Below, one piece after another: positions 648-20,157 of a stretch of 64,000 nt of DNA. Every line of letters starts with the position of its first letter. Position 1 is the stretch's first letter. Position numbers and translations under genes: made by a program. This stretch comes from Flavobacteriales bacterium. Lineage in GTDB: Bacteria > Bacteroidota > Bacteroidia > Flavobacteriales > Flavobacteriaceae. The notes beneath the pieces are model-generated. The model had not been told where the DNA came from. It was given only the letters and a program-made list of their open reading frames with translations, and did not search any database. The stretch covers positions 1 through 64,000 of the forward strand of contig JABMNH010000014.1 in assembly GCA_013205245.1 (NCBI GenBank), read 5' to 3'.

Positions 648-3073
648 ATGAAATACCGATTTTTATGCGTTTATTTTTTAATGTTTTTTTCTTTTATAAA
701 CGCTCAAAACAAGCCACAAGATAAACTAACAATTACCGGAAAAATTATCGAGAAATCAACTGACAAAGCTCTTGAATTTGCCAGCATTTATTTTGAAAAT
801 GAAAATGGTAAAATAAAAACTGGAACGACATCTGACAAGCGTGGAAAATTTAAATTAGACATCCCAGAAGGGATTTATAAAATTACTGTCAGCTTTTTAT
901 CCTATAAAAGTTATGTTGTCAATTCTAAATTCTTTTCAAAAGATACCGATTTGGGTATCATAACCTTGAGTTATAAGTCAGACCAACTTAAAGAAGTTTC
1001 TCTTAATTACACCAAAGGTTTGGTTGAGTTTAAACTCGATAAAAAGATTTACAATGTCTCTAAAGATATTGCCAATGCAGGTGGCACAGCATTAAGCGTG
1101 CTTGAAAATGCGCCTTATGTTAATGTTGATGGTAGTAATAATGTGAGCATTAGAAATAATAGTAACATTCAAATTCTAATCAATGGCAAACCCTCTGGTA
1201 TTGTTGATGGCGATATGAGTAATTTGAATGCCATTCCTGCCAATTCTATTTCTAAAGTTGAGATTATTACGAGTAAATCGGCTAAATATGACGCCGAAGG
1301 AAGTGGTGGTATCATTAATATTGTTCTTAAAAAGGGCAAAGGTTTGGGCTTAAATACATCTATAGAAACCCATATGGGTATGCCTGATGACGATGGGCTT
1401 TCTGCCAATATAAATTACAAATCTAAATCGGTTAATTTCTTTTCTACTACGGGTTATAATCACAGTAGTAATCCAGAAAGAGAACGTGTTAAACAAGAAT
1501 TTTTAAATACAAATTTACTCACAACTGGCTTTTTTGATCAAATAAGTAAAGCCACTAAACAAGCCAATTCTTTTCTAACAAATTTTGGGGCCGACTTCTA
1601 CATTAACGACAAAACCACATTAACGGCTTCTGTTTTATTTAAAACACGTGATAAAATTATAATACAGGAAGTATTCTAAACGACTTTGCCGCTTCTAAAA
1701 CTAATATTAAAACGTCAAACAGATTAGAAGATAATGACAATAATGTTGACCGCTATGAATACCTAATCGGCTTTGTTAGAAATCTTAAAAAAGAAGGCGA
1801 AAGTTTTTCACTAGATTTTAAATACAACCATGCCAAAGCCAATTCTTTCGGTTCAATTTTAGAACAAACAACTTTGCCAATTTCATCCGATAAGGAACAA
1901 AAATCGGTTAAAGACCAAAAATTAGACAGCTATCTAATTCAGGCTGATTATGTTTTACCTGTTGGGAAATATGGTCAGTTAGAGACAGGTCTTAAAAGTG
2001 CTGTTAGAAATTACGCTAACAATTATAATGTAGGCGAATTTGACATCGCAACAAGCACTTATAAAACAATTGGTGGATTTGATGATACCATAGAATACGA
2101 TGAAACTATAAATGCAGGATATCTTCAATTTGCGAGTTATAACACATGGTCTTATTCTTTTGGATTAAGAGTAGAAAACTCAGATATTTCAATTGGTTTG
2201 GGAAACTCAATTTCAAAAGCTAACAAAAATTATACTAATGTTTTCCCTACGGCTAAATTGAGTTATAAATTTAAAGATGAAAGTGTTTTAAACACAAGTT
2301 ACAGCAGAAGTATAGACCGCCCAACTCTTAGAAATATCAATCCGTTTATTACCTTTTCAAACGAGCGTTTTCAAACTGTTGGTAATTTAGATTTAGATCC
2401 TTTCTACACAGACTATTTTGAGTTAGATTATTATAAAAGTTATGAAAAAGTAACCTTGGCTACATCTTTATTCTATGTTATTTCTACCGATTTGCTTACC
2501 TATATTTTAGAAGAAACACCACTTACAACCAGCGATAATTTTACAATTTATAAACGTAAGCCCATTAATAACGGTACCTATTCTACTTTTGGTGGCGATT
2601 TAGATCTTTCATATAACCCCACAAAAAAAATCAATTTAAAAGCCTATTCCTCTTTTTATAATGTTGATATTTCTAAAACCCTTAACGGATTATACAATGG
2701 TTCAGATTTTAGATGGTACTCACAAATATCATCTTTAATAACATTTAATAATGGGCTAAAATTTCAAATAAAATACGATTACCAATCTGAGTTTAATACA
2801 GGACTTATAAAATTAAAACCCCAACAATACACATCAGTAGCTTTTAGCAAAGAGATACTACAAAAACAGGCAACACTCACTTTTAGGATAAGTGATGTTT
2901 TTGAAACTAGACGCGATAATTTATTATCAACCGAAGCAAATACCATTAGCCAACGCATTGGTCAAAATAATGACAGACAATTCTTATTATCTTTTACTTA
3001 TCGGATAAAACAAAAGAAAAGAAAAGACAAACACAACCGTTTGAATGATATTGATGCAGATGATTTTAAATAA
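648..3073 (+). pseudogene. Outer-membrane receptor (TonB-dependent receptor / OMP_b-brl family with carboxypeptidase-regulatory-like N-terminus), split by a frameshift near 1655-1664
   Basis: ORF 648..1679 (frame 0) and ORF 1874..3073 (frame 2) align end to end with the intact paralog at 3476..5929. Frame 2 upstream of 1874 reads TGSILNDFAASKTNIKTSNRLEDNDNNVDRYEYLIGFVRNLKKEGESFSLDFKYNHAKANSFG with no stop. Confidence 0.85.
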
Positions 3074-14035: not shown

Positions 14036-14161
14036 TTTTTATAATTTTTAAAGAACAATTTTGTAGTCGTGTAGTCTATAGAAAACTTTCAAAATATTCT
14101 AAGTTTATTATCATTAAAATGAATATTTACTTTTAAATTTGGACATCAAATTGATGATCTT

Positions 14162-17628: not shown

Positions 17629-19197
17629 TTATCTGGCAATATTTACAGCGCGGGTTTCTCTAATAACGGTTACCCTAACTTGACCCGGATAAGTCATGTC
17701 ATTTTGAATTTTCTGAGAGATGTTAAATGATAATTCGGCGGCTTTGGTATCGTCCACTTTTTCGCTTTCAACAATCACACGCAATTCTCTACCTGCCTGA
17801 ATGGCATAAGCTTTTTGCACGCCACCAAAACTAAAGGCAACCTCTTCTAAATCTTTTAACCGTTGAATATATGAGTCTAGTACTTGACGTCTTGCGCCAG
17901 GTCTTGCGCCCGAAATGGCATCGCAAACTTGAACAATTGGTGCGTATAAAGACTTCATTTCTATTTCGTCATGATGGGCGCCAATGGCATTAATAACATC
18001 TGGTTTTTCGCCATATTTTTCAGCCCATTGCATACCTAAAATGGCATGTGGCAATTCGCTTTCTGTATCGGGTACTTTTCCAATATCATGCAACAATCCA
18101 GCGCGTTTAGCGACCTTAGGATTTAAGCCCAATTCGGCAGCCATTAAGGCACAAAGATTAGCCACTTCGCGTGAGTGTTGCAACAAATTTTGACCGTAAG
18201 ACGAGCGGTATTTCATGCGCCCAACGACTTTAATTAATTCGGGATGCAAGCCGTGAATACCTAAATCTATAACCGTACGTTTACCAACTTCTATAATTTC
18301 GTTTGTAATTTCTTTTTCGGTTTTTTCAACTACTTCTTCAATTCTGGCAGGGTGAATACGCCCATCGGTAACCAACTTATGTAAAGACAATCGTGCAATC
18401 TCACGTCTGATAGGATCAAAACAAGATAAAATAATAGCTTCTGGCGTATCATCTACAATAATTTCAACACCTGTAGCAGCCTCAATAGCACGAATATTAC
18501 GCCCTTCTCTACCAATGATACGTCCTTTCACATCATCAGACTCAAGGTTAAAAACACTTACACAATTCTCTATAGATTGTTCTACACCTACACGCTGAAT
18601 GGTGTTTAAAATTATTTTTTTAGCATCTTGTTGCGCTGTAAATTTAGCTTCTTCAAGCGTTTCTTGAATAAACACCATAGCATCTGCTTTGGCTTCTTCT
18701 TTTAAAGATTCATTAAGTTCTTTTTTGGCATCTTCGGCAGAAAGACCAGAAATAACCTCTAACTGTTCTACTTGTCTTCTGTGTAGTTTATCTACTTCGG
18801 TATTTTTTTTCTCGAAATATTCAACTTTTTTAGCATAGTCTTCAATCTTTTCTTCGATTTCAAGATTTACTTTTTTGCTCTTATCTAACTGTTGTGAAAT
18901 TTGAGATTCTTTGTCTCTCACACGCTTTTCTGCTTCAGAAATCTTTTGATCACGCGATAAAATTAATTTTTCATGCTCGCTTTTAAGTTCTAAAAAACGC
19001 TCTTTAGCCTGAAGCATCTTATCTTTTTTAAGAGCTTCAGCATTAAAATTAGCTTCTTTTAATATTGATGTAGCTTGTTTTTTGGCTTGTTTTAAAAACT
19101 TAGAAGCCGATTTTCTTTCTACTATTTTTGCAATTACATATCCTATTGCTAATCCTATTGCGACCCCAATTAAAATGGGTAATGTCATTTGTTCCAT
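17629..19197 (-). CDS. rny: Ribonuclease Y
   Basis: N-terminal TM segment, long coiled coil, KH domain ([18 protein letters not shown]), HD domain ([11 protein letters not shown]). Confidence 0.97.
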
Positions 19198-19216
19198 AGT
19201 GTTATATATATAAAAA

Positions 19217-19370
19217 GCCTACATTAGTTGGTTTATAAACTCCGATTAAACAGGATTAGAACTAACAAGTTGATCGAGTATCTAGTCAAGCTAGCGCGCT
19301 CTTACAAACTTAGACTCATTCTTTTTAAATGAATAGTGTTGAGTTTACCAAACAATTTACTAATGTAGGC
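19217..19370 (-). ncRNA. ssrS: Probable 6S RNA (6S-Flavo type)
   Basis: Perfect 12-bp closing stem GCCTACATTAGT (19217-19228) / ACTAATGTAGGC (19359-19370), inner TAAACTC/GAGTTTA pairing, central unpaired regions, apical hairpin around CTAGTCAAGCTAG. On the - strand the stem is followed by TTTTTATATAT. Located between zapA and rny. Confidence 0.68.
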
Positions 19371-19396
19371 AGTATTGTAAATTTATTTTAAAGAAC

Positions 19397-19687
19397 TTAT
19401 TTTAAATGGGCGTCTAACAAAGCATGTAATTTATCAAGCTTATTTTCGGCATCCATTATTTCCTTTTCATTATAAAGGTTTTTTACTTCTAACTTAGATG
19501 CAAATTGCAAAGCACTCATGGCTAAAACATCTTGCTTATCTTTTACAGCGTAATTTTGCTCAAATTTTTTAATCAGCTCATTTATCTTTTTAACCGCTAT
19601 CCTAATACCCTCTTCTTCTTCTGTCTTTACTGTTAACGGATAAATCCTATCGGCAATACTAACTTTTATTTTAAGCATTTCCTTCAT
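19397..19687 (-). CDS. zapA: Cell division protein ZapA
   Basis: MKEMLKIKVSIADRIYPLTVKTEEEEGIRIAVKKINELIKKFEQNY typical of ZapA; start moved from 19717. Confidence 0.85.
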   Translation of the reverse strand: MKEMLKIKVSIADRIYPLTVKTEEEEGIRIAVKKINELIKKFEQNYAVKDKQDVLAMSALQFASKLEVKNLYNEKEIMDAENKLDKLHALLDAHLK

Positions 19688-19692
19688 TATTC

Positions 19693-19986
19693 TTATGCGT
19701 TGATAAGTTCTACACACCTATCAATATCACGAATAAGTGAATTAATTTTTTGTTTTGTTTTAAGTCTATCGTCTTTGCTGCCTCCTATGGTGTTTGCAAT
19801 TTTTAGGGCTTGAAATTTTTCTTCTAAATCAATATATTTTTGATTCTGATAAGATAATTCCTCAAGCAAACGCTTGTTTTCTTCGTTAAGATTGGTGTTG
19901 TTTTCTTGTAATTTTTGGTGTATTTTTAACAAGCTCAACAACTTACCTTCCAACAAATCAATCGTTTTCAAAAATCCTTCCATCAA
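19693..19986 (-). CDS. Coiled-coil hypothetical protein encoded with zapA (possible division-associated factor)
   Basis: 97 aa, predominantly heptad-like coiled coil; a few bp upstream of zapA on the same strand. Confidence 0.65.
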   Translation of the reverse strand: MMEGFLKTIDLLEGKLLSLLKIHQKLQENNTNLNEENKRLLEELSYQNQKYIDLEEKFQALKIANTIGGSKDDRLKTKQKINSLIRDIDRCVELINA

Positions 19987-20157
19987 TTCAAAGACTGTAA
20001 ACTTATTCTTACAAATCTAGCAACTGTTTTACACTTTAACAAGGTATTTGATATCTATTTTTTGAATTAGCTAATTTTTTAGAAATAAAGCTTCTAAACA
20101 TCCTAATTATTTCTATTTTTACTTTGATTAATGATTTAATATTTCATTTTAAACTTA

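Follow-up and report, generated by a model that had tools for sequence, protein, structure and literature searches.

The 199-nt gap between zapA and rny in a draft Flavobacteriaceae genome (2.38 Mb, 79 contigs) is, as judged from comparative sequence analysis, the site of the Flavobacteriaceae 6S RNA gene. The best explanation of its arrangement, to which we give a probability of roughly 0.7, is that zapA and this RNA share one transcript, in which a boxA element protects the RNA and from which processing and termination free it. 6S RNA is a small RNA that restrains RNA polymerase by imitating a promoter, and it serves as a global brake on transcription. The window, i.e., the whole stretch of 64,000 nt analyzed here, carries on its minus strand a coiled-coil gene, zapA, the gap and rny in this order. 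The distance from the zapA stop (19397) to the rny start codon (19197) agrees with the non-coding gap of about 200 bp described in an earlier note on this DNA. The following features are referred to below, and R1 denotes a full-length covariance model built in the present study.

19693 to 19986, minus strand: first operon gene, an ORF for a 97-aa coiled-coil protein, with an ORF at the same position in relatives
19397 to 19687, minus strand: zapA (Pfam ZapA, PF05164, E 1.2e-15)
17629 to 19197, minus strand: rny, RNase Y (Pfam RNase_Y_N, 2.3e-34, and KH and HD domains)
19217 to 19370, minus strand: 6S RNA gene, full length, 154 nt (R1, 141.1 bits, E 2.4e-29)
19359 to 19370, minus strand: 5' arm of the closing stem, pairing with 19217 to 19228
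19217 to 19228, minus strand: 3' arm of the closing stem, pairing with 19359 to 19370
19209 to 19216, minus strand: T-run adjoining the stem (5 or more T among 8 nt), probable terminator tail
19386 to 19396, minus strand: GTTCTTTAAAA, boxA-like antiterminator directly after the zapA stop codon, matching a known boxA
20012 to 20019, minus strand: TAGATTTG, sigma-A -7 box of the operon promoter, an exact and conserved TAnnTTTG
20040 to 20042, minus strand: TTG, -33 element of the operon promoter, conserved in relatives

The zapA translation used for the Pfam search begins at an internal ATG (MKEMLKIK), and the encoded RNase Y shares 81-83% identity with its Aureibaculum and Lutibacter counterparts. 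For the 97-aa coiled-coil protein, the Pfam scan gave nothing above the cut-off; a ZapB-like role is possible for this gene heading the operon.

When the whole window was compared with Rfam 15, the sole above-threshold match was 6S-Flavo (RF01685) at 19237-19344 on the minus strand, with 100.4 bits against a gathering score of 85 bits (E 2e-16). The match covers all 108 model positions (1-108), so that the core sequence and structure are those of the family described by Weinberg et al. (2010; PMC2864571), and the genome contains one copy. This was the covariance search suggested in the earlier note, whose identification of a 6S RNA is borne out by the match together with strong covariation over the full rod. 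The Rfam model represents only the 108-nt core and is without the closing stem, T-run, boxA and operon context found here.

The RNA has the layout of the 6S class, namely a closing stem, a large central bubble and an apical stem-loop. The closing arms GCCTACATTAGT (19217-19228) and ACTAATGTAGGC (19359-19370) pair perfectly over 12 bp and span 154 nt; they are followed inward by an AAACUC/GAGUUU helix, an open central bubble with AAACUCAAC on one side, and an apical hairpin arm. The unpaired stretch separating helices 2 and 3 has about 19 nt on the 5' side and about 16 nt on the 3' side. Folding of the minus strand gave -39.1 kcal/mol against a mean of -27.1 (z -3.4), which was better than 200/200 dinucleotide shuffles, and showed the inner helix and apical hairpin. 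TTTTTATATATA adjoins the stem end on the minus strand, and a T-run, with 5 or more T among the 8 nt past the stem, is present at 57/57 and 80/80 loci in two sets of relatives. The perfect 154-nt repeat, inner helix, loose centre, apical hairpin and T-run noticed earlier are thus all found.

The bare repeat is unremarkable, since the window contains 40 inverted pairs of at least 12 nt within 250 nt, many being AT-rich palindromes. We have therefore rejected it as evidence, and the structure is held to be real because of its conservation. Among 28 full-length relatives, 96.8% of cells are paired over the 42 pairs of the rod, and 24 pairs have changed on both sides, which gives the compensatory changes expected of a member of RF01685. 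In the 12-bp closing helix, which lies outside the Rfam model, 97.3% of cells are paired and 9/12 pairs have changes on both sides, for example GCCTACATT/AATGTAGGC, GCCCACATT/AATGTGGGC and GCCTGTATT/AATACAGGC; from this comparative evidence the stem is judged to be real. Covariation as high was found in 0/500 shuffles. Sliding the partner by 1-3 columns lowered pairing to 30-48%, a control that somewhat favours the helices because they were derived from the same sequences and Rfam; the double changes are independent of that derivation. The raw alignment folded poorly in RNAalifold, and the helices were therefore defined by the Rfam structure with the closing stem added. Since a stem with a T-run resembles a terminator, the rod might be regarded as a mere zapA terminator or 3' untranslated structure without 6S function. 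However, the 6S-Flavo match exceeds the gathering score and covariation runs through the whole rod, beyond the end stem, which makes such a reading extremely improbable. On the 3' side of the bubble, a sigma-A -7 mimic, UAAACYUG, is visible in Flavobacteriaceae; it is not kept across other families, and therefore no claim is made for it.

The full-length model R1 scores the window at 141 bits compared with 100.4 bits by Rfam. The order zapA-6S-rny was found at 57/57 Flavobacteriaceae loci, and a 6S match lies just before rny at 80/80 named loci, including those of Tenacibaculum, Polaribacter, Lutibacter and Maribacter; since the two sets, both drawn from Flavobacteriaceae genomes, overlap in part, their sum of 137 is a count of loci and not of independent genomes. 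The same order occurs in all 11 further Flavobacteriales families with a match that was read out. In an order-level scan, R1 detected the RNA in 51/60 genomes versus 45/60 by Rfam; a phylum-wide scan with fast filters showed no gain (50/396 versus 51/396 genomes). The gain of R1 came from the order-level scan and from reading zapA-rny gaps directly.

For the rest of the class, we used the region upstream of rny in 40 genomes from orders other than Flavobacteriales. R1 matched between zapA and rny at 10 loci from six families (E 1.5e-12 to 4e-3); L138, L139 and L143 gave the three lowest-ranking matches and are less secure. Rfam at E<=0.1 found nothing in 14 loci of this sample, including all 10. 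R1 also detected 5/5 tested loci of Bacteroidales-1 (RF01693; Rfam label "6S-Bacteroidales RNA suggested"; E 2e-6 to 4e-3), and the two Rfam families therefore share one architecture. The window RNA has the same rod as Bacteroidales-1 and aligns to that model end to end with 29.7 bits, below its threshold of 60, and is thus related to the family without being a member under the rule set by the curators.

Several individual loci may be recorded here. L118 (f19) has a 47.6-bit 6S RNA match at 776-976 (minus strand) outside the zapA-rny setting. The zapA-rny gap of L167 (f90) holds only CCCGCATCCCGG-TTAT-CCGGGATTGCGGGTTTTTT, as if the closing stem had stayed as a plain terminator after loss of the 6S RNA there. 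In L152 (f96), the gap has a boxA, GTTCTTTAATA, after zapA and a stretch starting with CCCGCA without an R1 match, which we read as a decayed or very divergent 6S RNA.

The sigma-A -7 box in this phylum is TAnnTTTG (PMC9723704, PMC7366714). The operon promoter, composed of TTG, 18 nt and TAnnTTTG, precedes the coiled-coil gene and zapA. An exact TAnnTTTG is found 636-671 nt upstream of the 6S RNA at 57/57 loci and within 600-720 nt upstream at 80/80, compared with a background of 70/937 windows of 120 nt, and at most of the 57 loci a TTG precedes the -7 box by 21-23 nt, counted to its first T. In other orders, TAnnTTTG before the coiled-coil gene is kept at 8/10 loci. A second TAnnTTTG in the 600 nt between the operon promoter and the 6S RNA occurs at 6/57 loci. 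In the 80 nt after the 6S RNA it occurs at 4/57, and none is conserved for rny in the gap; since rny is without a conserved TAnnTTTG of its own, some read-through is implied.

Transcription of the 6S RNA from its own promoter, either TAAATTTA by the stem or an alternative-sigma-factor promoter inside zapA, appears quite unlikely. TAAATTTA, at about 19379-19386 on the minus strand, differs from TAnnTTTG by one letter, the earlier note having described it as near this consensus; before the stem ACT is invariant and TACT nearly so, and 6S RNAs elsewhere, those of Bacteroidales included, have their own promoters. Against this, TAAATTTA recurs in one congeneric genome (L111) and in no other relative that was read, and its confinement to these two therefore gives no promoter evidence; we have rejected it as a local promoter since it is not conserved. 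Within 60 nt of the 6S RNA, 0/57 and 0/80 loci (0/137) have an exact TAnnTTTG, and a scan with the sigma-70 consensus gave one weak site, fewer than shuffles yield. Furthermore, the sole well-conserved element nearby lies at a variable distance of 22-32 nt from the stem and is therefore a poor fit to a promoter of fixed spacing. The idea of a start at the first stem base from an adjacent promoter is accordingly not supported, the conserved promoter being about 650 nt upstream; what stands from the earlier interpretation is the RNA identity and the association with zapA.

The well-conserved element is boxA-like. GTTCTTTAAAA is identical in 11/11 letters to the CRISPR-leader boxA of L. pneumophila Lens, for which PMC7862264 gives an approximately tenfold increase of precursor RNA when tested. 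GTTC(A/T)T follows zapA at 54/57 and 74/80 loci (128/137), 22-38 nt before the 6S RNA, and is found in 8/11 other Flavobacteriales families, including as GTTCTTTAACATA. A matrix derived from the rRNA boxA sequences in these genomes, which are mostly GTTCATTGACATA, placed the element beyond the 99% null at 40/57 6S loci, as against 5/285 control windows. In other orders, the motif follows zapA at 7/10 loci with a 6S RNA (L138, L139, L142, L153, L154, L159 and L169) and at 2/28 without (L152 and L156). A one-sided Fisher test by hand gave about 3e-4 with L154 placed in the 6S group on its R1 match, and 0.002 under the first classification. A second GTTCTTTAAAA lies at 14046-14056 (minus strand), 0.42 being expected by chance in the window.

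The element is missing in some lineages that share the operon (families f2, f5 and f12; L021, L022, L029 and L113) and is therefore not essential everywhere. The 6S loci of f5 (L116 and L117) have no GTTCTTT, and the rRNA leaders of this family (L120 and L123) have AGATCATTGACATA in place of GTTC; therefore boxA itself may have changed there. It is rather unlikely that GTTCTTTAAAA is a processing site or the binding site of another factor, the 6S RNA still being part of the operon. It sits just ahead of where the mature RNA begins, a position that would suit cleavage, and its fifth letter differs from the Flavobacteriaceae rRNA boxA, mostly GTTCATTGACATA. On the other hand, its letters equal those of a tested boxA and resemble the rRNA boxA elements of the same genomes, the rRNA operons of f14 and f7 carry GTTCTTTGA(A/C)A, and the spacing to the 6S RNA is loose.

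In the co-transcription model that we prefer, the 6S RNA would be the third unit of a coiled-coil gene-zapA-6S-rny operon, probably without its own promoter, and a single transcript would start from the sigma-A promoter at 20012-20042 (minus strand). When the ribosome departs at the zapA stop, boxA GUUCUUUAAAA would load the NusB/S10 complex, which would safeguard transcription through the structured RNA that is not translated. The 3' end would be set by the closing stem and the U-run, processing would yield the 5' end, and some read-through, which boxA may also serve, would reach rny. By homology to the family, the RNA would mimic a promoter, bind sigma-A RNA polymerase in this way and be released by synthesis of short product RNAs. 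Product RNAs have been reported for the B. thetaiotaomicron 6S RNA (PMC7366714), and 6S expression for F. psychrophilum and B. thetaiotaomicron (PMC9723704, PMC7366714).

The tested Bacteroidales-1 loci differ from the window RNA in lying outside zapA-rny; all five have their own TAnnTTTG 22-28 nt ahead, and boxA was found at 0/5. A broader statement, on which we are evenly divided, is that Nus/boxA drives synthesis of zapA-operon 6S RNAs across Bacteroidia and that relocated 6S RNAs have a sigma-A promoter and no boxA. In E. coli, ssrS is transcribed from promoters of its own, and no boxA is known for it. A link of zapA and ssrS, mentioned in the earlier note as known from other phyla, is documented in beta- and gamma-proteobacteria (PMC7641849), and in that unit, E. 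coli included, the 6S RNA directly follows zapA as it does here; ygfA/EVE genes come next there, whereas rny comes next in the window. Like the boxA elements known from CRISPR leaders and rRNA operons (Stringer et al., cited by PMC7862264), the element precedes a long untranslated RNA; unlike those, GTTCTTTAAAA precedes a 6S RNA and directly follows the stop codon of a coding gene. A link between boxA and 6S RNA was not found in the literature searched, where co-mentions, in two papers, were incidental as judged by title and word counts, and the operon and boxA arrangement of this known RNA family appears to be unreported.

The production of 6S RNA in Bacteroidota has been largely undescribed, and the full-length model recovers 6S RNAs missed by Rfam. 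The arrangement predicts that 6S synthesis depends on Nus antitermination and on zapA expression. If this is true, 6S RNA would join rRNA and CRISPR arrays as an untranslated RNA controlled by boxA, and its supply would be tied to a cell-division gene and RNase Y.
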